A stretch of DNA of 64,000 bases from Phycisphaerae bacterium (GTDB lineage: Bacteria; Planctomycetota; Phycisphaerae; Sedimentisphaerales; Anaerobacaceae), in assembly GCA_021736645.1 (NCBI GenBank), contig JAIPFM010000072.1:1-64000 (forward strand), given 5' to 3'. The translations under genes and the position numbers were made by a program. Positions 831-48,739 of this stretch are shown in pieces. Within the stretch, counting starts at the first letter, position 1, and each line of letters starts with the position of its first letter. Below the pieces are notes generated by a model, which made no database searches, was not told the origin of the DNA, and saw only the letters and a program-made list of their open reading frames with translations.

Positions 831-2249
831 TTAGGAGTGGTCGTTAACTCGGTAGCTCCATAGCGGAGAGGGCAGCAGGTGTCCGGTGTCAATGGTCTCT
901 GCTGCGTCCTGGGAAGACAGCTTTTTCTTCAGCTCCGGAATTTCCGAAAGGATCCACAGGGCCAGCCGATAGCGCTGTTCGATCAGCTCACATTCCAATC
1001 TGTAGGGATGCCCAAGGCAGTGGTTGTAAAAAAGGGCGTGGGTACTGCATCCGCCGCCACATAGGGCCCGGAGCCAGCAGTGGACGCAGCCTGTTCTTCC
1101 GTTGAAGTATTTCTCCCGCCATGGCCGTTGGAGGTTCTCGATAAGACCTTGCTCCAAATTTCCCAATTTGGCGTCCTCAAGCCCCGTGGACATGTGGCAG
1201 GCATAAATGTCCCTTTCAGCAGTCACTGCCAGGGTGGTGATCCCCGCACCGCAGCGGGAGAGCCTAGGCTTGGCCCGGGCCAGCCGAATAATGGCATCGT
1301 CAAAGTCCCAGAGGCAGAATGGCTTGCCCCGTCGCCACTGCCCGACGTAGTATCGGGCAAGGTCCGCATAGGCCCGCTTTACGGCGGACAGATCCCGCCA
1401 GCGAAGGGCCAGGGGATGGACAGCCGGTAAGAATACCGGCTCATAGGCGATGTTTCTGGAAAATCCGCTCTCCACAAGAAAACGGATATTGGAAAGAAAT
1501 GCGGCGCTCTGGCGTGTGAAGGTCCCGCGCAAGGTGATCCGCGCGCCTATGGGCAGATGCCCGGCAATCTCCAGGCACCGGCGGATGGCCTGCAGGGAGC
1601 CGCTGCTGTCGGCAAACGGGCGGTACCGGTCATGGCAGGTCTCGGGCCCGTCCATGCTCACCGTGAGGCTGAAAGCCTGTTCATCGAGTTGCAAAAGGGT
1701 CGGGGCACTGAGCAAAACGCCGTTGGTCACAAGATGCAGGGACAGGCTGCGCCCTTGTTCGGCCGCTTTGCGCCGGGCATGGCGCGCCGAAGAGAGAACC
1801 GTCTCCAGATTGAGCAATGGCTCGCCGCCAAAATAGGTGATCGCCAGCTCATTTGAAGGACTTGTATGAAACAGGAAGTCGATGGCTTGTTCGGCGGTGC
1901 AGGCGGACATATTCCTGAAATCTCCGCCATAGCGCCCGAAATCCGCGCTGCAGTACAAACATCGCAGGTTGCAGGTATTCGACACCTGAAGGATCAGGTT
2001 TTTGAATACCGGGGTGCTCTTCGCGCCGGACATATCCTGGGGCTTCTCAAAGATTGGAGCCAGCTCCGGCAGGGCCTTGATTTTTTCGGTGATGGGCTTG
2101 CCACCTTGCATCATCGCGCCGACCTCGCACCACTGCCCGCGCTGGAGCTCTGCATGCCGGGCTGTTACCGGGTTGTAGACATAGTACCTGCCCAGGACCC
2201 TCAAACGCTTGAGTGCGGTCCCGGTCCCTGATTTGCCATCACTGCTCAT
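831..2249 (-). CDS. Radical SAM/SPASM maturase-like protein
   Basis: This 472-residue protein is the last gene of the minus-strand operon. The radical SAM iron-sulfur motif is C93-x3-C97-x2-C100 (TCNLRCLYC), followed by FGGEPLL at about 140-146 and a SPASM-type C-terminal cysteine region (CGAG...YACH...CVHCWLRALCGGGC, about 330-410) that would bind auxiliary clusters. Residues 1-85 precede the radical SAM barrel and resemble the leader-binding N-termini of peptide maturases, but this is inference. The start overlaps the upstream gene by 4 bp (ATGA), implying translational coupling. GGEP and SPASM proteins of this class usually modify peptides or proteins. The FGGEP context is closer to PqqE/CcpM-like maturases than to anaerobic sulfatase maturases. 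Confidence 0.85.
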   Translation of the reverse strand: MSSDGKSGTGTALKRLRVLGRYYVYNPVTARHAELQRGQWCEVGAMMQGGKPITEKIKALPELAPIFEKPQDMSGAKSTPVFKNLILQVSNTCNLRCLYCSADFGRYGGDFRNMSACTAEQAIDFLFHTSPSNELAITYFGGEPLLNLETVLSSARHARRKAAEQGRSLSLHLVTNGVLLSAPTLLQLDEQAFSLTVSMDGPETCHDRYRPFADSSGSLQAIRRCLEIAGHLPIGARITLRGTFTRQSAAFLSNIRFLVESGFSRNIAYEPVFLPAVHPLALRWRDLSAVKRAYADLARYYVGQWRRGKPFCLWDFDDAIIRLARAKPRLSRCGAGITTLAVTAERDIYACHMSTGLEDAKLGNLEQGLIENLQRPWREKYFNGRTGCVHCWLRALCGGGCSTHALFYNHCLGHPYRLECELIEQRYRLALWILSEIPELKKKLSSQDAAETIDTGHLLPSPLWSYRVNDHS

Positions 2250-4003
2250 GGGGCGGTCTCTTTCATGAGGATGTCCAGAATCGCCGTTATCGTGTCGTAG
2301 TCGTCCGGTTCCCGGCGCTGTATGCGATCGATGATCTGCTGCTTTTTATACCTGCCCAGCGCATGGAGCTCCACGGCAAACGGATTCTCGTTCTCCGGTA
2401 CCCGTGGTCCGGCGCCGTTGTTTCGGCAGGCGGAGACAATGCCGCGCAGTTCTTCACGATACCGGGTGAATCCGGCCGTAAGCCGACGCAGCTCCTCGAT
2501 CAGGGCCGGGATATCCTGAATGGGGATGGGCAGCGGTCTTTCGGTCACGGCCAGGGCCCATCGGGCCAGCGTCACCAGGAGCTGTCCGATGCCGCTGCAT
2601 ATCCCGTTGATGCGTCCGATCAAATGCCCGTCAAGACCGGCACTGTTGATCCATAAGTTGCCGAGCCCAAGGTAGGACATGGGAAAGGCCGGCTCCACCT
2701 CGCCCACCAGCCGGATCAGGGCTTCACCCACCTTTTGCATGCGTCGGTCCTGCGCCCTGAACCGGGCGTAGCCATCTCCCTCCAGCCATTTGTTTTGAAC
2801 ATAGACCGCCTTTGTCCCCGTGCCGGGGTAAGGGTAAAGGTAGTTGCCCATACTCAGCGGAGACACATCGTAGCCGCCGCCTTTTTGGAAGCGCGCCTCA
2901 TAGAAAGCAAGGTTTAAATCCATCTCGGCCGCAGTGACGCCGGGATCAAAGGGCACCATGAATAGCTCCGCAGCGATGTCCAGCTCTTCGAGAAGGCTCA
3001 ACGCCCGGCGGTTGTCCTGGATGGAGGCCCGTTTTCCATAGCGTTTCAACTGGGAGGGGGCCATGGATTCGATGCCGATTTCGACCTTGCGCAGCCCGGC
3101 TGACTTGAGCTCCCTGAAAAGATCCCTTTCCACCTGATCCGCCCGGACCGTCATGAAGAAACCGCAAGCCATGCCCGATTCCCGAATGAGCGCGGCAAGC
3201 TCCTGCAACCGCCGGCGGCCTTGCTCCCCCGGGCCGACCACCGTCTCATCGATGAAGGAGAAAAGTCTCGTTGCGTATTGTTCATAGAGCTGCTGCATTT
3301 CCGTGACCACAGACACAGGGGACCGGCCCCGCCAGGCAGGCCCCTTGGACTGCCCATAAAAAGCCCTGACCGAGCAGAATGCACAGCGGCCGGTGCAGCC
3401 CCGGCTCGAGCTCATGGTCACGATGCCGCCGGAATCCATCACGGCAGCCATGTCATCCCGGGCCGGAAACGGCAGGTCGTCCAGGGGATCGATGAGCCGG
3501 GCCGCGGCGGTGCGGCGGAGGACATCACCATCACGAAAAGCGAGCCCCTCGATATTCCGCCACTCACCGCCCTGGGTAAGAGCCGATAACAGGGCCGGCA
3601 CCGTCTTTTCGCCCTCACCCAGGCCCACGCTGTCCACCCAGGGGACCTCACGGAGAATCCGTTCCGCGTCCAGCGCGGCTTCGATCCCTCCGAAGATAAT
3701 GTGACCATCGGGATTGGCGTCCCGCGCCGCCCGTGCGATTTCCACGGCCGCGGGCAGGGTCCAGTGGATGGTCGAGATGCCCAGCACCCGGAATCGTGAA
3801 CGGCGCGTTATAGCCGCCACATCCTCGACCGTCAGACCATGGAGCCCGGCGTTGATTATGGCGACGGTGAATCCGCCGGCCCGGGCCGCGGCCGCGATAT
3901 AGCCGATACCGATATTTTCCATGGAGACCACCAGTCGCTGGAATGGGGGGAAAATCAGCAGCAGGTCGACATCCACAGGCTCGGGTAGAGATGTACGCAT
4001 CAT
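2246..4003 (-). CDS. B12-binding-type radical SAM protein
   Basis: The protein has 585 residues if started at the ATG 4 bp after the TGA of the preceding gene; a second ATG follows immediately. The N-terminal part (LLLIFPPF, then VLGIST and IIFGGIEA) has the layout of a cobalamin-binding Rossmann domain. The radical SAM motif follows as SSRGCTGRCAFCS (C-x3-C-x2-C), then FIDETVV, and GIESM typical of the B12-binding radical SAM superfamily. No DxHxxG cobalamin signature is obvious, so B12 binding is by homology only. It overlaps the downstream gene by 4 bp. Relatives do methylation, ring rearrangement or C-C bond formation; the substrate here is unknown. Confidence 0.82.
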   Translation of the reverse strand: MMRTSLPEPVDVDLLLIFPPFQRLVVSMENIGIGYIAAAARAGGFTVAIINAGLHGLTVEDVAAITRRSRFRVLGISTIHWTLPAAVEIARAARDANPDGHIIFGGIEAALDAERILREVPWVDSVGLGEGEKTVPALLSALTQGGEWRNIEGLAFRDGDVLRRTAAARLIDPLDDLPFPARDDMAAVMDSGGIVTMSSSRGCTGRCAFCSVRAFYGQSKGPAWRGRSPVSVVTEMQQLYEQYATRLFSFIDETVVGPGEQGRRRLQELAALIRESGMACGFFMTVRADQVERDLFRELKSAGLRKVEIGIESMAPSQLKRYGKRASIQDNRRALSLLEELDIAAELFMVPFDPGVTAAEMDLNLAFYEARFQKGGGYDVSPLSMGNYLYPYPGTGTKAVYVQNKWLEGDGYARFRAQDRRMQKVGEALIRLVGEVEPAFPMSYLGLGNLWINSAGLDGHLIGRINGICSGIGQLLVTLARWALAVTERPLPIPIQDIPALIEELRRLTAGFTRYREELRGIVSACRNNGAGPRVPENENPFAVELHALGRYKKQQIIDRIQRREPDDYDTITAILDILMKETAP

Positions 4004-4007
4004 GATA

Positions 4008-6272
4008 TCATACTCCAAACATCGCCTTGATGGCGGCAGTGACGCGGGGACGTCTGCTTTCCAGTATCCGGTAGGCCAGTATGGCCCTCGCAAACTCAGC
4101 CCGCATGTAGTCGCACCACATCTCTGCGTCACGGGCCGGCCGCCGTGAAGCAATCCAGGCACAGGACTGGTTGCGCACCATGCACCCCCCGCCGCAGCGG
4201 GTCCGCGCCCAGCAGGCAAGGCATTCTTCCCTGACAACACATTTCCCGGGGCTGTGGATGTGCGCATCATCTTCCTGTCCGCATCGTCCCAGTGGGGCAT
4301 GGCCCGCCGCATATAGCTGGGGGCAGCGGTAGATCCGGGCCTGGGTGTCGAGGTAAACCTCGCCTGTCCCACACTCGCAGATGCCTTGTGGGCCTTTGGG
4401 TTCCGCAGCCACGAGGCCGGCAAACCCCAGGTCGACCCCGGCATCGCCCCGCAGCGCCGAATCGATGAAGAAGGGAAAAAAATCCGCCCTCGCCTGCATC
4501 AGTGCCGCGATCTCTTTTGAGGACCATACCAGTCCTGTTTTTTCTTCCCAGCCGGCAACCAGAAAGGAAATTCGGCGGCATCCCATCTCTTTCAGGTGCC
4601 CGGCCGCGCCGACCATATCGACATGGCCCGGTGTCAGGACCACCTGGCCGTCGATAACAGCGCCGCGACCGGCCTGCTTGAGCAGCCCTATACCGTGGTG
4701 TACGGCCTCCCATGAGCCTTGGCCCCCGGGGTATCTGCGGTGGCGGTCGTGGCACTCCGCGTTGCCGTCCACACTCACCTGAACAGTGACGCCATGGCGA
4801 TGGAGGGTTCGAGCGATGCGGGGCGTCATCAGGGTCGCGTTGGTGGTCAGGTGAAAAAAGGGGCGTTTGCCTCTTTGCCGGGCACCCCGGGAGATCTGCG
4901 TAATCAGGAATTCCCCCACCTCCCAGTTGAGCAGGGGTTCGCCGCCAAACAGCCCCACCACCGGTTCGACGGCCGGGCTTTCCAGAATATGGCGGACAAT
5001 CCGGCGTGCCGCCGGATAATCCAGATCATCACGCGGCGCCGTATGCCCCTTATCGTAACAGTAGTCGCAGGCCAGATTGCAGCGGCCGGTCAGGCGAATG
5101 ACAAAACTGCGGGGAGCCGCGTCCCAAGGCATGGGGGGTGCCGACGGCAATGCTGCCGCGAAAACATGGGCGATGGTTGTTTCTATCAGTTTTTCCGGCA
5201 CTCGGGAAGCAAGGACGACCAGTGATGCCTGGAGTCGGCGGGCATAATCTCGGGTATGCACGCAGGCCTGCTTTGCTTGCCTATCGACCCGACCATTCTG
5301 CTCAAAGGCATTAAAAGCACACCCCGAGACACACACCCGCCGGGCGCCACATTTTTTGCAGGAGGTCATGGCGGTCCGCCGTCTGTCCAGGTAAGGCTTT
5401 ACCCGTTCCGGGAGAAACCCCGGGTCGATGTTGCCGATCACCTGGTCGGGATGTCCCACGAAAAAGGGACAGGGGTAGATGTCACCGGTTCGGGTGGTGA
5501 CGGTGGCGTTGGTGCCCGCCTCGCAGGCGCAGGCGTCACAGCCTCCCAGAAGACAGGCCATGTGGATGGCGAGTTCTTGATCGCAGGTCCTGTCACCTGC
5601 CAGCAAAGCCTTCTGGTGCCAATCGATCCTGCGACTGAAAGCCTGCTTGACTGTTTTGCAGCGGCCTGAACGCGGGTGGTCTTCAGGGGCCGTATGAATG
5701 GGGTTGAAAGTGAACCCTTGAGCGTCGATTCCTCTGCAAAAGGCCTGAAGCCAGGCCAAGGCATCCGTCGAGGCCGCCACCGAGAAGATGGAGACAGGGT
5801 GATCCGGGTGACGCGCCACGAACCGAAGCAGGTTGCCGTACACCCTGTGGAAGCTTGGAGAGCCGTCGGGGTATATACGGTTGGCGTCATGAACCTCCGC
5901 GGGCCCATCGAGACTGACCTCGAGCCCGATTCCTTCGGCGGCGATAAAGTCCCCCAGGGCGTCGTCGAGCAGGGTCCCGTTGGTCACCAGGTGGAACCCG
6001 ATGGCCGTGTCCCCCCTGTCGGCGGCGGCCTTCTTTCCATAGGCAACGGCATGGCGGATGAGATCAGGCCGCAACAGCGGCTCCCCGCCAAAAAAAGTGA
6101 TCTTGACCCTCTTCGGTGACTGACTGAGAACGAAATCCACAAACCGCCGGCAGAAATCCGGTGTGCAATCCGCAGGGTCGGGACGGCCGCGACGGCGCAC
6201 ATAGCAATAGCGGCAGGCCAGGTTGCACCGCTCGGTGAGTTGGAGGGTAAAGGCGTATCGTTCGACAGTCAC
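4008..6272 (-). CDS. Tandem double radical SAM/SPASM protein
   Basis: This 754-residue protein contains two complete radical SAM/SPASM modules in one chain. Module 1 has C16-x3-C20-x2-C23, GGEP at 62-65, and SPASM cysteines around 249-337 (CEAG...YPCPF...CKKCGARRVCVSGC). Module 2 has C398-x3-C402-x2-C405, GGEP at 443-446, and SPASM cysteines around 632-720 (CECGTGE...YRCPQ...CLACWARTRCGGGC). Both keep all three SAM-cluster cysteines, so both may be active. The gene overlaps the upstream epimerase gene by 4 bp and lies 4 bp from the next radical SAM gene. Most SPASM maturases have one module; a duplicated one suggests sequential or two-site modification of a protein substrate (inference). Confidence 0.85.
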   Translation of the reverse strand: MTVERYAFTLQLTERCNLACRYCYVRRRGRPDPADCTPDFCRRFVDFVLSQSPKRVKITFFGGEPLLRPDLIRHAVAYGKKAAADRGDTAIGFHLVTNGTLLDDALGDFIAAEGIGLEVSLDGPAEVHDANRIYPDGSPSFHRVYGNLLRFVARHPDHPVSIFSVAASTDALAWLQAFCRGIDAQGFTFNPIHTAPEDHPRSGRCKTVKQAFSRRIDWHQKALLAGDRTCDQELAIHMACLLGGCDACACEAGTNATVTTRTGDIYPCPFFVGHPDQVIGNIDPGFLPERVKPYLDRRRTAMTSCKKCGARRVCVSGCAFNAFEQNGRVDRQAKQACVHTRDYARRLQASLVVLASRVPEKLIETTIAHVFAAALPSAPPMPWDAAPRSFVIRLTGRCNLACDYCYDKGHTAPRDDLDYPAARRIVRHILESPAVEPVVGLFGGEPLLNWEVGEFLITQISRGARQRGKRPFFHLTTNATLMTPRIARTLHRHGVTVQVSVDGNAECHDRHRRYPGGQGSWEAVHHGIGLLKQAGRGAVIDGQVVLTPGHVDMVGAAGHLKEMGCRRISFLVAGWEEKTGLVWSSKEIAALMQARADFFPFFIDSALRGDAGVDLGFAGLVAAEPKGPQGICECGTGEVYLDTQARIYRCPQLYAAGHAPLGRCGQEDDAHIHSPGKCVVREECLACWARTRCGGGCMVRNQSCAWIASRRPARDAEMWCDYMRAEFARAILAYRILESRRPRVTAAIKAMFGV

Positions 6273-7264
6273 GGCGATATTCCTTCATCGACCGATCTGA
6301 TTGCTTCCTGGAAATCCAGATCTGTTTTATCCCAGGGCAGGCCCCACCAGGGGGGGGGCTCCTGGCCCGAAAAACCGGCCAGGGTGACGGCCAGGGCCTT
6401 TTCCGTGGACCAGGCCGGCGCAAAGCCTATTTCATCTTGTATGCGCCGCGTCTCCAGAACCAGGTCCCCTTCGAAGAAGTACGGAATTTTCTGCAAGTCA
6501 GCGCCGCCCTGTTCCAGCACCCGTGCCGGGGCGCGCATCATTCGGGGCGGCTTTCCCGCCAGCCCCGCCAGAAGGTCCACATAGGCCTCCAGTGTGAAGG
6601 GCGTCCCTCCGGCGTTGTAGACCCGTCCGACAGCCCGGTCGCTTTCCATCAAACTGCAGACGGCCCGGGCCGCGTCGGCAACGAAAAGATTCTGGCAGTA
6701 GTACGGCCGGGCAGGCACGATAATGTCCTTTTCCCGCAAGATCTGCCGGAATAGGTAGGCTTCCCGGGATGAGGGATCGCGCGGACCGAACACGGCCGGC
6801 AGGCGCAGAACCGTCCAAGGCAGGCGGGCGGGGTGCTCGGCGAAGATAAGTCGCTCGCAGGCCGCTTTTTCAAATCCGTAGGCATTGAGCGGATTGGTTT
6901 CGAGCGGCGCGTCCTCGCCCACCGGGCAGTCAAGAGGCCAGCCATAGACACTGAGCGTGCTGATGTGAACGAAGCGGCGCAACCGACCACGAAAAGCTTC
7001 CAGGGCCAGCCGGGTTTCACCAGGGTGGTAGGCCGTGACGTCCACGACGGCGTCCACGGTGATGCCCGCAAGGACCCCGGCATAGCGCTCCGGCTCCCGC
7101 CGGTTCGCGACAAAGCGTGCCACGGGACGCGAATAGTGTACCGGCGTAATTCCCCGGTTCACCGTGGTGACTTGGCATCCGCGGGCCAGCAGTGCTTCCA
7201 CGACTGCATGGCCGATGAAGCGGCTGCCGCCCAGCACGGCCACGCTTTGAATCCGATCGGTCAT
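6269..7264 (-). CDS. NAD-dependent epimerase/dehydratase family protein
   Basis: This 331-residue extended short-chain dehydrogenase/reductase begins with a Rossmann nucleotide-binding motif (VLGGSRFIGHAV, near residues 10-21). It carries a catalytic-type Tyr-x3-Lys in YGFEKAACERL and a FGPRDP segment typical of nucleotide-sugar epimerases. It overlaps both neighbours by 4 bp, so it is translated as part of the radical SAM operon. Its presence suggests that a sugar or sugar-like nucleotide is handled by the pathway, or that it acts as a reductase. The substrate cannot be read from the sequence. Confidence 0.85.
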   Translation of the reverse strand: MTDRIQSVAVLGGSRFIGHAVVEALLARGCQVTTVNRGITPVHYSRPVARFVANRREPERYAGVLAGITVDAVVDVTAYHPGETRLALEAFRGRLRRFVHISTLSVYGWPLDCPVGEDAPLETNPLNAYGFEKAACERLIFAEHPARLPWTVLRLPAVFGPRDPSSREAYLFRQILREKDIIVPARPYYCQNLFVADAARAVCSLMESDRAVGRVYNAGGTPFTLEAYVDLLAGLAGKPPRMMRAPARVLEQGGADLQKIPYFFEGDLVLETRRIQDEIGFAPAWSTEKALAVTLAGFSGQEPPPWWGLPWDKTDLDFQEAIRSVDEGISP

Positions 7265-8775
7265 GCGAATCCCATCTCCCTCAGCGCCTGGTATTTGGGC
7301 AGGACGTTGGTCTCGTAGTTGAAGAGGAAGAACCCGGGGAAGATGTCTGCATGGGCGCCGATAAATTCATAGTAGGGGCGGTATTGCTCGGGCACCACAT
7401 GCCAGGTGTCCACGATCTCGTGTCCGGTGACCACGTAGACCGGGACGAGCTCGGGCACCAGGGAAAGGGTGCCGCCATAATCTCCTTTGCGATAATCCCG
7501 GTAGATATCTGTCTGGGGCAGCATGGAAAAAAGCGAAGGCAGTACGGTGACGCCCATCTGCCGGAAACGGGCCATCTGCAGGGCCGTCTGGTAAAACTCG
7601 GTCATGTCTTCAAAGGGAAATCCCCAGATGAAGAAGGTTTCCACCGACTCGAAAATACCCAGCGCCAGGGTCACCGCCTCCAGGGCGTCCTGGAAGACAA
7701 ACCCTTTAACCACCTTTTTGAGCACCTCGTCGGAACCCGATTCGATGCCGAAACGCAGTTGGACGCAACCTGTTTGTGCCATCCGCCGCATGGCGCGTTC
7801 GCTGACCAGGTTCACCCTGCCGTAGCATTTCCAACGCACCCCAAGGCCCGAGGCCTCCAGTCGGTCACAGAAGTCGAGAATTTTGGCCTCGCTGGTGTAG
7901 AAGAACTCATCCTGGAAAAGAACGGTCTTTACCCCGTAAGTCTCGTGCAACAGCCGGATCTCCGAGATGATATGGTCATGGCTGCGGTAGGTGGTCCGGC
8001 GATTCCAGACCGGTGCCACGCTGCAGAATCGGCACTCATAGGGACACCCCCGGGATGAGAGGATGCCGAAGGCATCGTAAGCGGCCATGTCCAGCCGGTG
8101 GTAAGCGGGCAGCGGCAGGGTATCGAGATTGCCAATGCGATGGGGCTTGCCGGTATAGTGCACCGTTTTGTCGATGTGACGGTGAAAAAAGCCCGGTACC
8201 CGGCAAAGCCGATCCGGATCGAATTGTGTCTTCAGGAGCAGGGGCAAGGTGGTTTCAGCCTCGCCCCGCACAATCCCGTCAATCCAGGCAAACCGCTCCA
8301 GGATCAAGGATTCCACACCAAACGGACCCACGCCACCCAGAAGGATTTTCTTTTCCGGATGCCGCTGCTTCAAACGTTGAGCCACCAGCAGGGTGAAGGG
8401 CAGCAGGTTCGCCATGCAGGAAAACCCCACCACCTCTGCCGTCCGGCCGATGAAGGCCAGCGCCGTATCGATCTCAAAGGGGTCCGCATGGCTTTCTGAC
8501 CGGGGAAGAATCTGGTAATCCACGAGGTCGACGCAGAACCCCTGTTGTTCGAGCACCGACGTCAGGTACAAGAGTCCCAGCGGAGGATGGGCCTCATGGT
8601 CGATCCCGTCGCCCAGACGGATGTACAGCAGGTTCATGTTGACGAGGGTGATGTCCGCGGCCGCTCCTGAACGTTCCCGCCCGTAGGGGCCGCCGGCCGT
8701 TCGCGCCCCGGACCCGTTTTCCCCGCTCCCCGGCCGGGCCCCCACGATGGGGATGCTGCGGCGGTCCTGTGTCAT
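7261..8775 (-). CDS. B12-binding-type radical SAM protein
   Basis: The protein has 504 residues. The ATG at 8775 is preceded by a good AGGAG site; a second possible start (MNLLYIRLG) lies about 46 codons in. The N-terminal domain (PPLGLLYLTSVLEQQGF, ILLGGVGPFG, DGIVRGEAE) is the cobalamin-binding-type Rossmann fold of this superfamily. The radical SAM motif is SSRGCPYECRFCS, followed by FQDEFFY and RFGIESGSDEVLKK. It is the first enzyme of the operon, 30 bp after the lipoprotein gene, and overlaps the epimerase gene by 4 bp. It differs clearly from the other B12-type radical SAM protein here, so the two probably do separate steps. Confidence 0.82.
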   Translation of the reverse strand: MTQDRRSIPIVGARPGSGENGSGARTAGGPYGRERSGAAADITLVNMNLLYIRLGDGIDHEAHPPLGLLYLTSVLEQQGFCVDLVDYQILPRSESHADPFEIDTALAFIGRTAEVVGFSCMANLLPFTLLVAQRLKQRHPEKKILLGGVGPFGVESLILERFAWIDGIVRGEAETTLPLLLKTQFDPDRLCRVPGFFHRHIDKTVHYTGKPHRIGNLDTLPLPAYHRLDMAAYDAFGILSSRGCPYECRFCSVAPVWNRRTTYRSHDHIISEIRLLHETYGVKTVLFQDEFFYTSEAKILDFCDRLEASGLGVRWKCYGRVNLVSERAMRRMAQTGCVQLRFGIESGSDEVLKKVVKGFVFQDALEAVTLALGIFESVETFFIWGFPFEDMTEFYQTALQMARFRQMGVTVLPSLFSMLPQTDIYRDYRKGDYGGTLSLVPELVPVYVVTGHEIVDTWHVVPEQYRPYYEFIGAHADIFPGFFLFNYETNVLPKYQALREMGFA

Positions 8776-8805
8776 AAATTCACACTCCTGAGGCTGTTCC
8801 TCTTC

Positions 8806-9339
8806 CTATCCACGTACACCGGCGACAGCGGAGGGGGTACGGACTTGAAAGTCCATGCTTTTCATAACATCGCTCGCCTTGATCTGGACCGGTTCGACCT
8901 CAAGAACGATCGGTTTGGGTGTCACACGCGTGACGGCGAAGTCGTCCGTGTCGGATGTCCTGACCTTCAGGTAGACCTCGTCCTTGCCGAGTTCTTTGAG
9001 CCCGAAATCGACCGACCCCAAACCGTTGGCGCCGATCAGGCCTTTGCCGCCGGGCACCAGGGCATAGCTGTCCTCATCGCCGGTTTGGCTGTAAAAGACA
9101 CGAAAATACGTGCCGGCCTGGCCGGCGATGTTGAGGGTGACATGATCCGTCTGCCCTTGCCGCAGCAGTTGAATCACTTCCTGCTTGACCGCTTGAGAGG
9201 AGATGACCGACTTGGCCGGCTCCGGGGGGAGTGGCTGGTCCTTGTGATGCTGGCTGTGACAGCCTGTCAGGGCCGGGATGGTGTAGACGGTGGCCAGCAG
9301 GGTCGGTATCACTGGCTTTTTGACCTCCTGTTTTTTCAT
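8806..9339 (-). CDS. Small putative lipoprotein, first gene of the radical SAM operon
   Basis: This 177-residue protein starts at the ATG at 9339, chosen because AAAGGA lies just upstream; an ATG five codons earlier is less well placed. A lysine-rich N-terminus and short hydrophobic stretch lead to LTGC, a good lipobox, and no other cysteine follows. The rest is predicted beta-rich and soluble. The C-terminus reads VRTPSAVAGVRG and stops; this phrase resembles the signature inside FecR-type domains, but here it is the chain end. It precedes four radical SAM genes on the same strand, so it may be their protein substrate or a surface partner. That role is inference, and I do not recognise the family. 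Confidence 0.65.
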   Translation of the reverse strand: MKKQEVKKPVIPTLLATVYTIPALTGCHSQHHKDQPLPPEPAKSVISSQAVKQEVIQLLRQGQTDHVTLNIAGQAGTYFRVFYSQTGDEDSYALVPGGKGLIGANGLGSVDFGLKELGKDEVYLKVRTSDTDDFAVTRVTPKPIVLEVEPVQIKASDVMKSMDFQVRTPSAVAGVRG

Positions 9340-9435
9340 GGCGTTTCCTTTCACAGTGTCATTTCAATTTAATCCGGGCAGAACACCATTTTACCCTGGC
9401 CCAAGTTCGACGGTTATGACAAAATAAAATAAATT

Positions 9436-9549
9436 TAGGGGTCAGGTCTATCTGTTTGTGGTTTGTCAGAAATGACAAACAGATAGGCATGACTCAAATG
9501 CCGCTCAGATGATAATGTCACGCCAAGTGCAAACAGACATGACCCCTAT
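9436..9549. repeat. Solitary inverted-repeat element, REP-transposase-like ends
   Basis: The outer arms are TAGGGGTCA at 9437-9444 and TGACCCCTA at 9540-9548. Inside lies a strong hairpin (TATCTGTTTG...CAAACAGATA, with a nested GTTTGTCA/TGACAAAC stem). The right arm continues as GCAAACAGACATGACCCC. Such AGGGGTCA-bounded hairpins are typical of the ends of Y1/REP-associated tyrosine transposase elements, but there is no transposase gene between them. It is probably a deletion remnant or non-autonomous copy. Confidence 0.55.
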
Positions 9550-10140
9550 GGAAAACTGTCCCTTGGGGGAACGCACGTGAGGTATCTATTGAACCAGCAC
9601 GCGCAGCGTTCCCACAACTTAAAACCATAGGACCGTAAAACGGGTCAGGTTGTAATAGGTAAAGTCACGATGTATTACTGATGGTAGGCAAACTAGAAAG
9701 AAGGCTTCTTCAGGTCAGTCCTGGACGTAATACTTTGCGCTGCGCTCAGGTGTGAAGTGCGGGTCGCTGCGCTGAGGGGTGAGGTTTGAGGTGCGAGGTG
9801 TGAAAGCCAACTACAGTCGGACAGTCGGACGGTTTGACGGTAGCCAACAACCCATACCTATCACCAGCAAAAGGCCCCCGATGATTTCGCGTCAGCCTAC
9901 TTCATCATTGGGTGTTCCTTGTTCGATATTGGATATTCAATCCTTTGGTTCCGGCCGCAGGCCGCCCTGTGATCCCCGTGCCTCCCCCTTGGGGGCAGGC
10001 GTGCGAGACAATGCTTTTAGCTGTTGATTTCTTTGCGTTCTCTACCGAGCTTCGCGAGAGGCAATTTTTATTCCCAATGTAGCCCCTTGTCCTGCCTGGG
10101 TACAACGGATAGAATCACCCCAGGGTAACACTTTTGCTAT
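9550..10140. other. Non-coding, repeat-rich intergenic DNA
   Basis: No gene is supported. The stretch includes GGTGTGAAGT/GAGGTGTGAA words near 9738-9810 that recur (inverted) near 12205-12232, a block at about 9893-9945 containing TTCGATATTGGATATTC, and a partial GCGTTCTCT...CTTCGCGAGAGG word near 10034-10062 related to the larger three-copy repeat described at 11924, 29738 and 52313. The many short repeats suggest an insertion-prone region between the radical SAM operon and the next gene. Confidence 0.5.
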
Positions 10141-10270
10141 GTGAAGCACATGTGTTGGTTCACAGTCAAAAAGGTTCACCGTTCACGGTTAATGCCCCAA
10201 AACATCGCCTATTCCATCAACTGTGAACCGTGAACCCGGAACCGTGAACCACTTTTGCAGAGTGCTTCAC
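10141..10270. repeat. Imperfect palindromic element, about 130 bp
   Basis: The ends are GTGAAGCAC (10141-10149) and GTGCTTCAC (10262-10270). Inner arms contain repeated GTTCACGGTT/AACCGTGAAC words in inverted orientation. The whole block could fold into one long hairpin. It lies about 50 bp upstream of the beta-helix gene, so it may contribute to its leader or simply be a non-autonomous insertion. Confidence 0.55.
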
Positions 10271-10320
10271 TTGGCTAAAGTATTACAAAAATCCAAATTC
10301 CTATCAGTTGAGGTGAGTCT

Positions 10321-13166: not shown

Positions 13167-14708
13167 TTAGGCGTCAGATGGCTTGATCCAGTTGCTGGGC
13201 AGTAGGCTGTCTATTTCTTTGCTTGGGGTGGTGCTGATTCTGGTAAGCACATCTCGGAAGTAGGCATAGGGATCATGACCATTGAGCTTGCAACTGGCGA
13301 CCAGGCTGTAGATCACTGCGGCACGTTGGGCACCTGCTTCACTGCCGGCAAACATCCAATTTTTGCGACCAATCGCCACAGTACGCAATGTGCGTTCTGA
13401 CAGGTTGTTGTCAATGTCCAAAATCCCATCTTTGGTATATTCAAGCAAGGCCTCCCACTGGTTCAATGAATACGTGATCGCTTTACCTGTGGGACTTTTC
13501 GGTAAGACCTCGTCCTTCCAGGCCATTAAGAGGGTGTGGATCTTATCAAGTATTGGGAGTGAATGCTTTTGACGCAACTCAAGCAGAGCATCGCGGCTAA
13601 GCTGTTCTGTTTTGCCTTGCTTTTCGATGACGTAGAGTTCCTTCCACAACACGAGCATTTGACTTGCCCTGACAGGGTCACTATCCAGTGCCTGATCAAA
13701 CTTTCTCCGTGCGTGCGAATGACAACCGACTTCCGTGGCGTTGCCCTTCTGGAAGAATTCGTCATAACTGCTGTGGGCATCGGCTTGAAGGTAACCGGAG
13801 TAATCCTTCAAAAACTCAATGGGGCCATGGCGGCTATGCGTAGGGGTAAAGTCAAAGACCACATGATGGTCATCATCAATATAAGCCCATAGGTACCCTT
13901 TGTAAGTCGATCCTTTGCGTTTCTTACTTTTAATGGGAACAGACGTTGAATCCGTATGAATCTTGGGCGAGGCCAGGATCTTTTCATGCATCCTTATGAC
14001 TAAGGGGGTTAAGAGGTCCGAGCAACTGCCCACCCAGTCGCACATGGTAGAGACTGTGATCTCAACGCCGTTTCGCTTGAGTATGCCTTCAAGGCGATTC
14101 AAGGGTAGATGATCCGCATATTTGCTGGTAATCACATGAGACAGCAACCCTTCAGCGGCAATCCCTTTGTCAATGGCCATGGGAGGAAGTTCTCCAATGG
14201 ACACTTGGTTACCGCATGGTTTACAGGCGTATTTGTTTCTGACGTAACGTTTAACCCTAAATGAGGCCGGGATATAATCCAGCCTTTCAGTGACCTCTTG
14301 ACCAATGCACTGTTTCTCACAGTGGCACTCAGGACAGGTTTTCTCTTCATCTGACGGCTCAATGGTGATGGTGTCTCTTGGCAGGTCTTCAGGAAAAGGA
14401 TTGCGACCCGTGTGATTGGCATTGGGACGTCTGCGAGGAGATTCCTTTTTGTCGTTGTCTTTGTTTTGTTCCTCCAGTTTGGACTTCACGTCGTCATACA
14501 AACCTTGGAACAATAGCAGTTGAGCAGGATTTAACTTCTCACTCTTTTTACCAAACATCTGCCGCTTGAGGTAATACAACTGGCCATTGAGATCGTCAAT
14601 CTGACCCAGCAGTGTCAGCACCATCTGCTTCAATGTGTTGCAGTCATTGGGAAGTCTATCTATTGATGTTTTGGCGGTAACACTTGCTGTCTGACTCATG
14701 CCAAACAT
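13167..14708 (-). CDS. tnpC: IS66 family transposase (TnpC)
   Basis: This 513-residue protein is the large IS66 transposase. An N-terminal coiled coil with LNGQLYYLKRQMFGKKSEKL (about 40-60) is the family's typical leucine-zipper/QMFGKKSE segment. A zinc-binding-like region follows (CPECHCEKQCIG and CKPCGNQ), then the DDE catalytic region (HTDSTSVP, LQADAHSSYDEFF, and DNNLSERTLRTVAIGRKNWMFAGS near 435-460). The usual C-terminal segment DVLTRIS is present. Length and motifs are complete. It would catalyse cut or copy transposition of the element. Confidence 0.95.
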   Translation of the reverse strand: MFGMSQTASVTAKTSIDRLPNDCNTLKQMVLTLLGQIDDLNGQLYYLKRQMFGKKSEKLNPAQLLLFQGLYDDVKSKLEEQNKDNDKKESPRRRPNANHTGRNPFPEDLPRDTITIEPSDEEKTCPECHCEKQCIGQEVTERLDYIPASFRVKRYVRNKYACKPCGNQVSIGELPPMAIDKGIAAEGLLSHVITSKYADHLPLNRLEGILKRNGVEITVSTMCDWVGSCSDLLTPLVIRMHEKILASPKIHTDSTSVPIKSKKRKGSTYKGYLWAYIDDDHHVVFDFTPTHSRHGPIEFLKDYSGYLQADAHSSYDEFFQKGNATEVGCHSHARRKFDQALDSDPVRASQMLVLWKELYVIEKQGKTEQLSRDALLELRQKHSLPILDKIHTLLMAWKDEVLPKSPTGKAITYSLNQWEALLEYTKDGILDIDNNLSERTLRTVAIGRKNWMFAGSEAGAQRAAVIYSLVASCKLNGHDPYAYFRDVLTRISTTPSKEIDSLLPSNWIKPSDA

Positions 14709-30761: not shown

Positions 30762-31152
30762 GCGTTGTGCTCCTTCTCTGTATGGGTTGTTACAGACATG
30801 AGCCAGGCATGGCCCATGTGTATGCAAACTTTAACCATAATCTTACCCCTGCGGCCAAAGGACTGCAAGGGATTGTGTCCATATATATTGGGTGGCATTT
30901 GTCGTGTGGTGTGGAGACTGACCTGCTGACCGTTCATGTCACACTCGATCCCGGGCAATGGCCTGCGCCCATTCATTTTGAGCAGGCCGCAAAAACCTGT
31001 GCTAATTATTGATGTTTTTACTGTTCTGATATGGTAACTTAATGGTCGTTTTGCCAGACCCTGAGTTTTGTCTGAAAGACAAGCTGAGGGGGGCGAATCG
31101 CCTCTTAAGACAGGGGCCAGCAGGTGTTATGTCCTTGGCGGTGGAGTCAGTC
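30762..31152. other. Divergent intergenic region
   Basis: This 391-bp region separates the DUF1080 gene (minus) from the GH95 gene (plus) and must hold both promoters if each is transcribed alone. The AT-rich tract around 31005-31040 (TTGATG, then GATATGGTAAC) is the likeliest plus-strand promoter area, but the -35/-10 spacing is poor, so no site is called. Confidence 0.35.
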
Positions 31153-33558
31153 ATGAGAAAGAGACAAATCGCACTCCTGGTTGTTTTTGTGGTATTTACG
31201 GTATTCTTTTGCCCGGTCACTGGGTCAAGGCCTGTCCGGGCCGACGAGTCTCTCAGGCTCTGGTACCACCAGCCTGCACGCCAGTGGGAGCAGGCCCTGC
31301 CCCTGGGGAACGGCCGTCTGGGTGCCATGGTCTTTGGGGCCGTGGCCAGGGAGCGGTTTCAGTTGAACGAGGAAAGTCTCTGGGCAGGTGAACCGTTTGA
31401 TGTGTATCCGGAGGACTATGCTGCCAATCTCAAAACACTCCAGCGCCTGGTGCTGGACGGCAAGATTGCCGAAGCCCGCACATTCGGTCTCAAAACCCTG
31501 ACCAAGTCTCCCACGTCGTACCGTTCCTACGAGCCCCTGGCCGATCTGTGGATCGACATGACGCACGGAGACCAGGTTCAGGACTATGAACGTGCCCTGG
31601 ACCTCGAAACCGGTCTGTCACGGGTGACCTATCAGGTCGACGGCATCAGGTTTGTGCGCGAGGCATTCATCTCGGCCAGGGACGATGTGATGGTCATCCG
31701 TCTCAGTGCAGACAAACCCGGCGCGCTGACTGCACGCATCGGTCTGACGCGGGACAAGGACATGACCGTGACAACCCGCGGCGTCACTCAGTTGCACATG
31801 GACGGTCAGATTGTGGATGTGCCTGCCCCGGAAGGCTATGATGACAATCCGGGAGGTTCCGGGCCCGGGGGAAAACACATGAAGTTCGCGGGCCGTTTAC
31901 TGGCACGGTCTGTCCATGGGACTGTCACACCGCAGGACAATGCCCTGTTCATCAGGGATGCAGACGAGGTGGTGGTCCTGTTCACTGCGTCCACGGATTT
32001 CAGTCTGGACAAAATGACCTTTGACCGGACGATTGACACCGGGCATCAGGCAGAGGCGATCCTGGCCAGGGCGGCGGGGAAATCCTGGTCTGATCTGCGC
32101 AGAGACCATGTGCAGGAACATCGTGCCTGTTTCAACCGCGTTGCACTGAATCTGGGTGAAGACAACCCGCAGGCCATCCCCACGGACGAACGCCTGGCTG
32201 CAGTCAAACAGGGCGGCGCTGATCCCGGCCTGGTTGCCCTGTATTTCCAGTACGGCCGCTACCTGCTCATGTCCAGTTCGCGTGCGCCGGGGCGTCTGCC
32301 TGCCAATCTTCAGGGCCTCTGGAGTCACAAGATGTGGGCGCCCTGGGAGGCGGATTACCACCTCAACATCAATCTGCAGATGAACTACTGGCCCGCGGAT
32401 CTGTGCAACCTGTCCGAGACCGTGACACCCCTGGCGGACTGGTTCTGCCGTGTTGCACAAAAGGGTCGTGTGTCTGCGCAGAGACTCTACCATGCACGCG
32501 GGTGGGTGGCCTTCACCACCGTGAATCTGTTCGGTCGGACCACGCCCGGCGGCTCCAATGAGGCCTCTCAGTTTCAAAATGGCGCGCTGGATCCGCTGGC
32601 AGGGGCCTGGATGGCCCTGACCCTGTGGCGACACTATGAATTCACAGGGGACACGGCTTTCTTGAAGGCGCAGGCCTACCCGGTACTCAAGGGCGCCAGC
32701 GAGTTTCTCCTGGACACTCTGATTGAAGACAAGGACGGCTTGCTGGTGATTGTTCCTTCCACGTCTCCGGAGAACGCCTATGTCCAGCCCGAAACAGGCC
32801 GTGCGGTGCGCATCACACGCGGCTCCACCTATCACATGGCCATTGTGCGGGCCGTGTTTAACGCAGTCATCCAGGGGTCAAAGACCCTGGATCAGGATGC
32901 AGACCTGCGAGGCCAACTCACCACGGCTCTGGCCAAGCTGCCGCCTGTCAAGATTGGCAGTAACGGCACCATCCAGGAGTGGATTGAGGACTACGAGGAA
33001 CAGACGCCGGGCCATCGCCACATCTCTCATCTGATCGGTCTGCACCCCTTTTCTCTGATCACGGCGCAGGACAGGGACCTGTTTGCTGCGGCGCGAAAGA
33101 CCATTGAACGGCGACTCAGTCACGGCGGGGGGCATACAGGCTGGAGTCGTGCCTGGATCATCAATTTTTACGCGCGCCTGCTGGAGGGTGACGCGGCCCA
33201 CGATCACGTGGTTCAGCTCCTGGCCAAGAGCACACTGCCGAATCTGTTTGACACGCACCCGCCGTTTCAGATCGATGGCAACTTTGGAGGCTGTGCAGGC
33301 ATTGCAGAAATGTTGATTCAAAGTCACAATGGGATGGTGCATCTCCTGCCGGCCCTGCCCGGGGCCTGGACGCAGGGGTCGGTCAAGGGACTCAAGGCCC
33401 GCGGCGGCTTTGTCGCGGACTTTGCCTGGGACCAGGGCCAGATCGTGTCGTACAGGATCCAGGCCTCGCGTGCAGGCGTACTCAGGCTTCGGGTGGGTGA
33501 CTTACTAATCGAAAAGACCCTGAGTGCCGGAGATGTGGTGACTGAGACGGACCAATAA
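31153..33558 (+). CDS. Glycoside hydrolase family 95 (alpha-L-fucosidase type)
   Basis: This 801-residue protein has a signal peptide (ALLVVFVVFTVFFCPVTG) and matches GH95 in length and blocks: LWYHQPARQWEQALPLGNGR and LNEESLWAG (N-terminal beta domain), then APGRLPANLQGLW, HLNINLQMNYWP, IQEWIEDYEEQTPGHRH and FQIDGNFGGCAGI. The likely catalytic acid is E609 and a second key carboxylate is D708, by position in these motifs; NINLQMNYW supplies the conserved asparagines. GH95 enzymes release alpha-1,2-linked L-fucose, and some act on L-galactose. It leads a plus-strand run of sulfatase, PhoD-like, oxidoreductase and DUF6807 genes. Confidence 0.93.
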   Translation: MRKRQIALLVVFVVFTVFFCPVTGSRPVRADESLRLWYHQPARQWEQALPLGNGRLGAMVFGAVARERFQLNEESLWAGEPFDVYPEDYAANLKTLQRLVLDGKIAEARTFGLKTLTKSPTSYRSYEPLADLWIDMTHGDQVQDYERALDLETGLSRVTYQVDGIRFVREAFISARDDVMVIRLSADKPGALTARIGLTRDKDMTVTTRGVTQLHMDGQIVDVPAPEGYDDNPGGSGPGGKHMKFAGRLLARSVHGTVTPQDNALFIRDADEVVVLFTASTDFSLDKMTFDRTIDTGHQAEAILARAAGKSWSDLRRDHVQEHRACFNRVALNLGEDNPQAIPTDERLAAVKQGGADPGLVALYFQYGRYLLMSSSRAPGRLPANLQGLWSHKMWAPWEADYHLNINLQMNYWPADLCNLSETVTPLADWFCRVAQKGRVSAQRLYHARGWVAFTTVNLFGRTTPGGSNEASQFQNGALDPLAGAWMALTLWRHYEFTGDTAFLKAQAYPVLKGASEFLLDTLIEDKDGLLVIVPSTSPENAYVQPETGRAVRITRGSTYHMAIVRAVFNAVIQGSKTLDQDADLRGQLTTALAKLPPVKIGSNGTIQEWIEDYEEQTPGHRHISHLIGLHPFSLITAQDRDLFAAARKTIERRLSHGGGHTGWSRAWIINFYARLLEGDAAHDHVVQLLAKSTLPNLFDTHPPFQIDGNFGGCAGIAEMLIQSHNGMVHLLPALPGAWTQGSVKGLKARGGFVADFAWDQGQIVSYRIQASRAGVLRLRVGDLLIEKTLSAGDVVTETDQ

Positions 33559-45595: not shown

Positions 45596-48500
45596 ATGAA
45601 TGCGAAGAAAATGGTGCCTGTATTTATCATTGTGGGGCTTGCCCTGCAAATGCGTGTGTGGGGGGGTCAGCAAAAATATCAACCCACCTGGGCCTCTCTG
45701 GATGCACGGCCCACACCGCAGTGGTTTACGGACGCCAAGTTCGGTGTGTTCATCTGTTGGGGCCTGTATTCAGTGCCTGCGTGGAGTCCGCCTGGCAAAT
45801 ACTCGGAGTGGTATCAATACTGGCTGCAGCAGAAATCATTCAATGGCCAGGTGTATGATTTTCATGTCAAGACCTATGGCGAGGACTTTGCGTTCAAGGA
45901 TTTTGCCCCCCAGTTCAAGGCGGAGTTGTGGGACCCCAATGCCTGGGCCGACCTGCTGGACAGGGCCGGGGCCAGGTACATGGTCTTTACCACCAAGCAC
46001 CACTCCGGGTACACGATGTGGCCCAGTGCGGAGGCAGAAAAAACCTATGGTGTGAACTACAATCCCGTGAAGGTGGGGCCCAAGCGGGACATTGTGGGAG
46101 AACTCTGTGCCGCGGTGCGCACCAAAGGCATCAAGGCGGGCCTGTACTACTCGCTGTATGAATGGTACCACCCCCTGTGGCAGACGGACAAGCCCAGGTT
46201 TGTGAGCGAGCACCTGTTTCCCCAGTTCAAGGATCTGGTGACACGGTACCAGCCGGACATCCTCTGGTCGGACGGTGAATGGGAAATGGCATGGGAGCAG
46301 TGGCGAAGTCCTGAACTCCTGGCCTGGTTCTTCAACCAGTCAGACCATGAAGAGGACCTGGTCATCAATGACCGGTGGGGCAAGGGCGTGCGTCACAAGC
46401 ACGGCAGCTTCTACACCACGGAATACGGCTCCGGCATGGACGACGATGCGCACCCGTGGGAGGAGAACCGGGGCATGGGATATTCCTATGGGTATAACCG
46501 AGCCGAAAATCTGTCTCATTACAGAACGGCGCAGGAACTCATCCTCATGCTGGCCGACGTGGTGAGCCGCGGCGGCAATCTCTGCCTGGACATCGGGCCG
46601 CGCGCGGACGGCACCATTCCGGTGATCATGCAGGAACGTCTGCTCCAGATCGGGGACTGGCTCAAGCTCAACGGGGAGGCCATCTACGGCACGCGTATGT
46701 GGGACAGAGCGTGCCAGTGGAGCGCAGGGCAGGTGCCGGCATTGAAGCGCGGCGAGTACATGTCCAAATTCAATATTCTGGAACAGACCGTGACCCCGCC
46801 GCCCGGGCAGGCACGCAAGGAAGTCCTGTTTACATGCAAGCAGGACAATGTGTATGCCATCACGCCCCTGTGGCCCGGAAAGACGCTGGTGCTGAAGGAT
46901 CTTCAGCCGGGACGTGACACAGAGGTGACTCTCCTGGAAACCGGGCAGGTCCTGCCCTGGGAACGCCAAGGTCAAGACCTTGAGATCACCTTGCCTGAGT
47001 CCGGCCTGACGGGACTTCAGAGTCAATATGCCTATGCCTTTCGTATCAGCCATGTCACAAAGCCTCGAGTCACAGCCAATCCCAAAACTGTCGAAGAGAT
47101 CGAGTCATGGTGGCAAACCGGCAAAACGCTCCCTGTTTCGGTCCATGACAAATATCCGTTGAATGAGATCACCATACAAGACGACACCGGCATCAATGTG
47201 CTGATTGACATGGCGCACAAGTGTGACTTCTTTACACTCTGGAATCTGGGAGGACCCCTGAATCAGCGGGGCATTCGCACGATCGGCAGTCATGCCACCC
47301 TGGATTCCGTGCTCACGCCAGGGGCTCCCTGTCGCGTGCGCATCCCTGTGGCGCCCAAGGTCTATCCCTTTGCGTGGTGGCCTGCACCGAAATTCAATGT
47401 GGTCTTGACAGAGGGCACGCCGCAGTATCCCGGGTACCTGCCTGAAGAGCAGGCGGTCTTAAAGGAATTTATCCAGCAGGGGGGCGGCTTGATTGTGTCA
47501 GGCACACGCCTTAGCGACGAAGACACGGCACAGGCCTGGTCTCTCAACGCCATGCTCTCTGACTATGGTGCGCGCATTCTGGCCGGGCAGGAGACCTGTC
47601 AGGGCAAGTCATGGCCCAGGTTGGAGGTGAGCAAAGATTGGCAGGTGATCGTCAAGGGTGACAACGGGTTCCCCATCTATGCGCAGCGGCGCGTGGGCCA
47701 GGGACGTATCGCTTTGCTGGCCTCGTCCGCCCTGTATCGCTTTGACCGCAAAGCACGCTCCGATGTAGCCGAAAAGTGTGGATTCCTCAAGGAGGTCATC
47801 CAGTGGGCGGCTGCAGGGTCCGACCCTGTGGGCGGGTCCACGCGTTTTCCCAGGGCCATGGGCGGCGGCGGGGGGATCTATCCTGAGTCAGAGACACGTG
47901 TTGACGGCATTGTCTGTTTCTACAGCAAGAACCAGATTCCTGAACTCATGGGCACGTTGAAACAGGATTTTCCTGCGATCACCCAGGATATCTATGCTTG
48001 GCTGCCGTCCCCAAAACCGGAGCAGCCCATGTACATGATCCTGTGCAGCGGCACCGGCGGGGGCTGGGCCGTGAATGCGTACCTGCCCAAGGAGGCCTCG
48101 ACCATCTCCACGAGTTCGAACGGTATCAGGAGCATCTTCGGGCATGAGCAGGCGCACACCATGGCAGGGCCCTGCACTGCGGCCAATCATCCGTTCGGCG
48201 GCAACCGGGGCGAAGAGCACGCGGGCTGGTTCCAGGGCAAGATCAACGCCAAATACAATGGTGACACAGGCCCGAATCGGCAATGTCACCGTGTGTTCAG
48301 ACCGGACTACGACGGCACCCAGACCACGGCTGATACCATTTTCAAGGCAGCCAATCTGGACAAGTGGAAGCAGGGCCATGATCGGATGATGATCTGGTAT
48401 GTGTGGCAGAAACTGGACGATCGGTACGGGCCTACCTGGTATCCCCGCTGGCGATGGGTGCAGTCGCAGCGTTGGCAGGCAGAGCCTGACAGGCAACTGA

Positions 48501-48739
48501 CCTGGGAAGAATCCATCGAGGACATGAGTATTGCCGTGGGCGAAGACCTGTTTCCCTTCTTCCTAAAGACGGGCAAACAGTTGGGCAGGACACGGTTTTC
48601 CGAGGCGGTGTTTCAAGGCAAGACCATGAGCCTGTCTATCGCACCCATAGAACCCACGCTGCCGGGCGATGTGTGTCTGGATGCCATTGGTGACTATACC
48701 AAGGCACTTGAGACAAACAGTCTGGAGGTCAATCTATGA
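45596..48739 (+). CDS. GH29 alpha-L-fucosidase fused to a putative zinc metallopeptidase
   Basis: The protein has 1047 residues; GGAG lies upstream of the ATG. Residues 25-390 are a GH29 fucosidase: FGVFICWGLYSVPAWSP, FTTKHHSGY, and LWSDGEWEM with the likely nucleophile D226, then GGNLCLDIGPRADG. A beta-sandwich follows (about 390-490). Residues 600-740 resemble a class I glutamine-amidotransferase-like domain (EEQAVLKEFIQQGGGLIVSG). Residues about 750-1040 contain H850-E-Q-A-H854 with a GEEHAGW glutamate 19-20 residues later, as in gluzincin peptidases of the M60/enhancin kind (inference). A short signal peptide is likely. The usual GH29 length is 400-600. It overlaps the next gene by 4 bp. 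Confidence 0.85.
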   Translation: MNAKKMVPVFIIVGLALQMRVWGGQQKYQPTWASLDARPTPQWFTDAKFGVFICWGLYSVPAWSPPGKYSEWYQYWLQQKSFNGQVYDFHVKTYGEDFAFKDFAPQFKAELWDPNAWADLLDRAGARYMVFTTKHHSGYTMWPSAEAEKTYGVNYNPVKVGPKRDIVGELCAAVRTKGIKAGLYYSLYEWYHPLWQTDKPRFVSEHLFPQFKDLVTRYQPDILWSDGEWEMAWEQWRSPELLAWFFNQSDHEEDLVINDRWGKGVRHKHGSFYTTEYGSGMDDDAHPWEENRGMGYSYGYNRAENLSHYRTAQELILMLADVVSRGGNLCLDIGPRADGTIPVIMQERLLQIGDWLKLNGEAIYGTRMWDRACQWSAGQVPALKRGEYMSKFNILEQTVTPPPGQARKEVLFTCKQDNVYAITPLWPGKTLVLKDLQPGRDTEVTLLETGQVLPWERQGQDLEITLPESGLTGLQSQYAYAFRISHVTKPRVTANPKTVEEIESWWQTGKTLPVSVHDKYPLNEITIQDDTGINVLIDMAHKCDFFTLWNLGGPLNQRGIRTIGSHATLDSVLTPGAPCRVRIPVAPKVYPFAWWPAPKFNVVLTEGTPQYPGYLPEEQAVLKEFIQQGGGLIVSGTRLSDEDTAQAWSLNAMLSDYGARILAGQETCQGKSWPRLEVSKDWQVIVKGDNGFPIYAQRRVGQGRIALLASSALYRFDRKARSDVAEKCGFLKEVIQWAAAGSDPVGGSTRFPRAMGGGGGIYPESETRVDGIVCFYSKNQIPELMGTLKQDFPAITQDIYAWLPSPKPEQPMYMILCSGTGGGWAVNAYLPKEASTISTSSNGIRSIFGHEQAHTMAGPCTAANHPFGGNRGEEHAGWFQGKINAKYNGDTGPNRQCHRVFRPDYDGTQTTADTIFKAANLDKWKQGHDRMMIWYVWQKLDDRYGPTWYPRWRWVQSQRWQAEPDRQLTWEESIEDMSIAVGEDLFPFFLKTGKQLGRTRFSEAVFQGKTMSLSIAPIEPTLPGDVCLDAIGDYTKALETNSLEVNL

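Follow-up and report, generated by a model that had tools for sequence, protein, structure and literature searches.

A six-gene operon with five radical SAM cores and a putative RiPP-like protein substrate in a Phycisphaerae bacterium

What would five radical S-adenosylmethionine (SAM) cores act on when their genes stand directly behind the gene of one small, apparently exported protein of no known family? The question is raised by an operon of six genes, A to F, at positions 831-9339 on the minus strand of a 64,000-nucleotide stretch of DNA (hereafter the window) from a Phycisphaerae bacterium (contig JAIPFM010000072.1). On balance we favour the view that this operon is a protein-maturation system which resembles the pathways of ribosomally synthesised and post-translationally modified peptides (RiPPs), and that it modifies the C-terminal tail of protein A.

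Several lines of evidence lead to this reading. We hold it because the gene order recurs in a second genome and the homologues of A all lie directly upstream of B; because the tail of A is invariant despite synonymous changes in most of its codons, and follows a variable linker; because the relatives of B are tied to Os1348 precursors, whose slot A fills; because F is closest to CteB, which has a leader-binding RiPP recognition element (RRE), and D to PapB and QhpD; and because ApyD, the named family most similar to B, beta-methylates its precursor close to the C-terminus. We observe directly the gene content, the intact motifs, the conserved order, the position of A next to B, the purifying selection acting on the tail of A and the RiPP linkage of the relatives of B; from these we infer that A is the substrate, which part of it is modified, what the single reactions are and that the product is exported.

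The operon and its recurrence

The original prediction described a same-strand operon of six genes with short overlaps or gaps. Gene calls bear this out, and all six genes were confirmed in the transcription order A, B, C, D, E, F:

8806..9339, minus strand: gene A, 177 aa; exported protein of no known family, no Pfam or NCBIfam match; proposed precursor or substrate
7261..8775, minus strand: gene B, 504 aa; B12-binding radical SAM protein, nearest to ApyD and RiPP C-methyltransferase families
6269..7264, minus strand: gene C, 331 aa; extended short-chain dehydrogenase/reductase (SDR) of the NAD-dependent epimerase/dehydratase superfamily, no specific family
4008..6272, minus strand: gene D, 754 aa; double radical SAM/SPASM protein with two complete units
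2246..4003, minus strand: gene E, second B12-binding radical SAM protein; 585 aa from ATG 4003, 590 aa from TTG 4018
831..2249, minus strand: gene F, 472 aa; radical SAM/SPASM protein, closest solved relative CteB

Overlaps of 4 bp join B to C, C to D and E to F, and 30 bp separate A from B. The junction between D and E depends on the start of E, with a 4-bp gap for ATG 4003 and an 11-bp overlap for TTG 4018. The five radical SAM cores claimed from the sequence were all recovered as PF04055 matches within the operon, each with an intact CxxxCxxC motif (B 244, D 16 and 398, E 208, F 93). A search of the region with Rfam gave no element, and promoter-like sites were no more frequent there than expected by chance.

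When 84,980 genomes were scanned with D by exact short peptides, a search that reaches close relatives only, one relative locus (L011) was obtained, in the metagenome-assembled genome (MAG) 'Desulfobacteraceae bacterium isolate S2_4'. In this locus B-C-D-E-F follow each other in identical order with identical overlaps, the TTG start of E is possible too, and the end of A lies upstream. Identity to the proteins of the window is 79% for B, 71% for C, 68% for D, 71% for E and 70% for F. The contig begins within A, and the last 96 residues of this protein are 62% identical to those in the window. Since the order and the overlaps of B to F recur in this way, the arrangement is not due to chance. 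No further D was found in 298 sampled genomes of the class (E<=1e-60), in 392 sampled genomes of the phylum (E<=1e-80) or in three genomes from the family of the second host. The operon is thus rare within the searched data, as these sensitive sample searches gave no other D and the large scan only one locus. Its GC content exceeds that of the surroundings by about 6 points in both genomes (60.9 versus 55.3 and 56.6 versus 50.0), and this excess, together with the scattered occurrence, suggests horizontal transfer. Matches to D on a viral contig (29%) and on plasmids (25-29%) turned out to be ordinary radical SAM proteins.

Protein A and its invariant tail

Two segments of A are needed for what follows:

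9259..9339, minus strand: N-terminal export-signal-like segment, residues 1-27; lipobox LTGC in the window only
8809..8844, minus strand: C-terminal tail, VRTPSAVAGVRG; invariant, proposed modified (core) segment

A second contig from the genome of the relative locus (L030) carries A in full length and the first part of B. Its DNA is 91% identical to the start of the first contig; the two versions (L030 181-729, L011 3-290) differ in their flanks or contig ends, and L030 may stem from a second strain or from a duplicate of the operon. Over the full length, A of L030 is 63-64% identical to that of the window. Three strong homologues of A are available, namely those of the window and of L030 and, for the C-terminal half, that of L011; each lies directly upstream of a B gene. 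The check proposed with the original prediction, that homologues of A should always neighbour the double radical SAM gene, is answered in part: all three adjoin B, and D is seen in the window and in L011, while L030 carries A and the beginning of B.

The comparison changes the view of A as a lipoprotein. The window sequence reads IPALTGCHSQ and that of L030 reads LPALAGGDDQ, with Gly at the position of Cys27. The segment IPTLLATVYT[IL]PAL is conserved in both. Because this segment is kept and Cys27 is lost, an export signal is likely in both proteins, and lipidation, as judged from these sequences, is not a conserved trait; the lipoprotein label given to A earlier does not fit the full-length homologue and is not supported as a defining trait. 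The accompanying statement that A has no cysteine beyond the lipobox is correct: in the window the protein contains a single Cys, its L030 homologue contains none, and the tail is free of Cys in either.

All three sequences of A end in the same 12 residues, VRTPSAVAGVRG. Of the 12 codons for this tail, 9 differ between the window and L030, all of them synonymously and none non-synonymously. By comparison, the 28 alignment columns before the tail contain 13 amino-acid changes and 6 gap columns, and form a variable linker. The tail is the most constrained part of A and is under purifying selection. To judge from the alignment, a variable linker followed by an invariant C-terminus resembles a core peptide, but could also be a binding motif.

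The second possibility deserves to be spelled out. The modification could fall on a site elsewhere in the whole protein or on an unlinked substrate; the tail would then serve solely for recognition or docking, to bring in the enzymes or a machine for export or sorting. Short invariant C-terminal motifs are often sorting or docking signals, and the strand-rich domain of A is well conserved too, for example in KKLGKDEVYLKV. However, the operon contains no sortase-like or other sorting enzyme, and the tail signature is not known from other genes, with one match in 89 genomes of the family. We regard this explanation as improbable.

Searches for the origin of A gave little. Against NCBIfam and Pfam at E<=10 it had no match except one irrelevant weak one. 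A profile search of 395 genomes of the phylum of the second host gave no credible new homologue, the weak matches in four of them (G940, G901, G941, G805) proving to be unrelated genes once their loci were read. Matches on Cronobacter plasmids covered the signal-like segment only, the viral contigs held no homologue of A, and a plasmid search with the tail found nothing. The structure model of A (mean pLDDT 40) has strands at residues 66-127 and a tail that is not ordered, and is too weak for a structure search. The tail VRTPSAVAGVRG resembles the FecR signature, TPxAxxxVRGT, and ends just before its usual Thr. Pfam FecR has no match in A, the FecR proteins of the same genome read differently (for example, VRTPTALITDMGTEF), and an origin from FecR, or mimicry of it, is left unproven.

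Gene B and its relatives beside RiPP precursors

The prediction of two B12-type radical SAM proteins, B and E, was correct: both pass the cut-offs for the B12-binding domain PF02310 (55 bits in B, 72 bits in E) and for the PF04055 core. The best NCBIfam match of B is ApyD (NF050148), with 196 bits against a cut-off of 750. ApyD methylates the beta-carbon of the Tyr next to the C-terminal residue of its precursor (PMC11117315).

Among the 89 genomes of the family, relatives of B (E<=1e-60) are present in four, namely the genome of the window and three others (G344, G350, G356; 47-48% identity). In each of these three, two or three mutually related small genes directly precede B, and most of them match NF038399, an Os1348-family RiPP domain of the nitrile hydratase leader peptide (NHLP) clan. 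A separate search of the 89 genomes with NF038399 found it in exactly the same three, a co-occurrence with B that has a chance of 3.5e-5 if the two are independent. Neither the genome of the window nor that of the relative locus (G000, G362) has a match to NF038399. Because the relatives of B adjoin Os1348 precursors and these two genomes are without any, A occupies the place of the precursor beside B. This position, directly upstream of B in three of three cases, as well as the precursors before its relatives and the constrained tail, supports the earlier proposal that A is the substrate. None of the genes C to F was seen next to the precursor clusters of the three genomes.

One could argue that the enzymes actually act on a small RiPP precursor that has been overlooked, encoded in trans or on another contig, and that A is an accessory or immunity protein. 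The use of Os1348 precursors by the relatives of B and the completeness of the MAG (~88%) leave some room for this. We nevertheless consider it very unlikely: an Os1348 precursor is missing from both genomes, the ~900 bp 5' of A (9354-10300) contain no convincing open reading frame on the minus strand, and strict conservation of the end of A is unexpected for an immunity protein.

B differs from its three relatives at the N-terminus:

8659..8775, minus strand: N-terminal extension of B, ~38-39 residues; contains IPIVGARPGSG

The extension is absent from the relatives. Its motif IVGARPGSG resembles TIVGGRPPGSG or TIVGGRPS, found N-terminally, just before the NHLP domain, in four precursors. When the extension from L011 was compared with the four precursors, 0-4 of 2000 shuffled extensions equalled or beat it in each case; for the extension from the window the numbers were 16-252 of 2000. 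The likeness is suggestive at the sequence level and would fit a leader fragment carried by B. A likeness between the IVGGRP motif and the tail of A was also tested and is not supported. The three relatives (L016 6006-7499, L017 2590-4062, L018 2534-4027) have a C-terminal tail of their own, SCGAHSP[RH]I[ED]PxxLATR, which is absent from B of the window.

The other enzymes, the proposed mechanism and known systems

C was called an epimerase; the extended SDR assignment stands, but the epimerase label has no basis beyond the general SDR and Pfam Epimerase fold. D and F were described as a double and a single radical SAM/SPASM protein, and both descriptions are confirmed by seven-Cys patterns in D and by the SPASM domain TIGR04085 in F (46 bits, cut-off 27). 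Read from the sequence, the SPASM cysteines of D are 250, 268, 305, 308, 314, 318 and 337 in the first unit and 632 or 634, 650, 684, 687, 693, 697 and 720 in the second; both patterns are invariant in the relative locus. The top-scoring families for D are the peptide and protein maturases PapB and QhpD, with 326 bits for the PapB model, below its cut-off of 340. E is nearest to BchE, hopanoid enzymes and RiPP C-methyltransferases, all below cut-off.

F matches CteB with 205 bits over the radical SAM and SPASM regions, and CteB is also its top Foldseek match, in which the VIA-align alignment spans the barrel only and the model has a mean pLDDT of 42. The score with the SCIFF maturase model is 224 bits (cut-off 425). 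CteB binds the leader via an N-terminal RRE (PMC6231123). In F, the first 70 residues show three strands and then helices, which is the order of an RRE, in a weak AlphaFold2 model (pLDDT 52-72 for this block); sequence searches with this N-terminal piece gave nothing useful.

2049..2210, minus strand: tentative RRE-like N-terminal domain of F, residues 14-67, from the weak AlphaFold2 model

The main rival explanation is that radical and SDR chemistry by B to F yields a small molecule or cofactor, for which A, once exported, would serve as a carrier, binding or resistance protein. The superfamily of C acts mostly on nucleotide sugars and other metabolites, E stands nearest to BchE and the hopanoid enzymes, and the strand-rich region and export signal of A would suit a binding protein. 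However, D and F score highest with peptide and protein maturases, three SPASM units would be unusual in a metabolite pathway, the relatives of B are tied to RiPP precursors, and a strictly invariant end after a variable linker is atypical for a binding protein. The original prediction had named a small-molecule product as its alternative; it is less supported than A as substrate, and we consider it unlikely, though the least unlikely of the three rivals.

If A is indeed the substrate, the following scheme may be proposed. A would be a precursor with an export signal, a strand-rich leader or scaffold domain of ~90 residues, a variable linker and the modified tail VRTPSAVAGVRG. F probably docks A through its RRE-like domain. 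Hydrogen abstraction on the tail, leading to epimerisation, cross-linking or desaturation, is the probable task of F and of both SPASM units of D. B and E probably methylate carbons that are not activated, and C probably adjusts an oxidation state. The modified A would then be exported.

Several points weigh against this reading. No known RiPP precursor resembles A, no leader is recognised in it, and its known sequences number only three, with two from the same MAG. The tail of A contains neither Cys nor aromatic residues, the usual targets of SPASM peptide enzymes, and could be a binding motif instead. The operon contains no protease or exporter gene, and the RRE of F is tentative.

How does the operon compare with described systems? 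In general it has the RiPP feature of maturase genes adjoining a small gene with a variable linker and a conserved C-terminal core, seen here in three sequences only. The Os1348/NHLP clusters share with it a B homologue, directly after the precursor, and the IVG[GA]RP motif; however, their precursors have an NHLP-type leader, which A lacks, and no recognised relation to A. The aminopyruvatide enzyme ApyD (PMC11117315) is the nearest named family to B and acts near the C-terminus of its precursor, but the apy cluster contains a cytochrome P450 and a multinuclear non-haem iron-dependent oxidative enzyme (MNIO) and no SPASM enzyme, and its Tyr target is absent from the tail of A. The SCIFF/ranthipeptide maturases CteB and PapB are similar to F and D, respectively, but form thioethers at Cys, and A has no Cys-rich core. 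The His-Xaa-Ser (Hxs) systems also place at least two radical SAM proteins beside one target protein; A lacks His-Xaa-Ser repeats, the operon adds B12 enzymes and an SDR, and the HxsB model gave 78 and 170 bits against a cut-off of 370. In proteusins, such as the polytheonamides (PoyB/PoyC/PoyD), several radical SAM enzymes, including B12-type C-methyltransferases, act on aliphatic residues of one precursor. Here A has no NHLP leader, and the SPASM double enzyme and the SDR replace PoyD and the dehydratase.

The named RiPP classes considered are excluded by the defining features tested. No treatment of Os1348 together with radical SAM, of paired radical SAM domains with SPASM or of the present set of genes turned up in the papers searched. 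Each enzyme family is known by itself; what is undescribed in the libraries and papers searched is their combination, in which an unrelated exported precursor is joined by a double SPASM fusion, two B12 enzymes and an SDR. To this extent the earlier claim of an undescribed gene set holds.

A bolder possibility, which we put forward as speculative, is that exported proteins matured by radical chemistry form a new class, of which this operon is an example. The precursor would be folded, the five radical SAM cores and the SDR would target its aliphatic tail of 12 residues, and B would carry a fused piece of an ancestral RiPP leader, IVGARPGSG, in cis, which would permit a substrate without an NHLP leader. 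If so, up to five radical SAM units would converge on one short tail that has neither Cys nor aromatic residues. The set would be unusually dense for radical tailoring, would include a double radical SAM/SPASM enzyme that occurs in nature, and would be a likely origin of novel C-H chemistry. An NHLP-type precursor would have given way to an unrelated exported protein, with a leader-like motif on the enzyme, and this would illustrate how a maturase changes its substrate in evolution.

Elsewhere in the window, positions 18870-54059 form a dense block with many exported sulfatases and glycoside-hydrolase-like genes (for example, 31042-33558 and 45596-48739), which is probably a region for sulfated-glycan degradation. 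So many exported sulfatases would suit a planctomycete. At a distance of a few kb from the operon there is also a gene for an IS66-like transposase (13167-14708).

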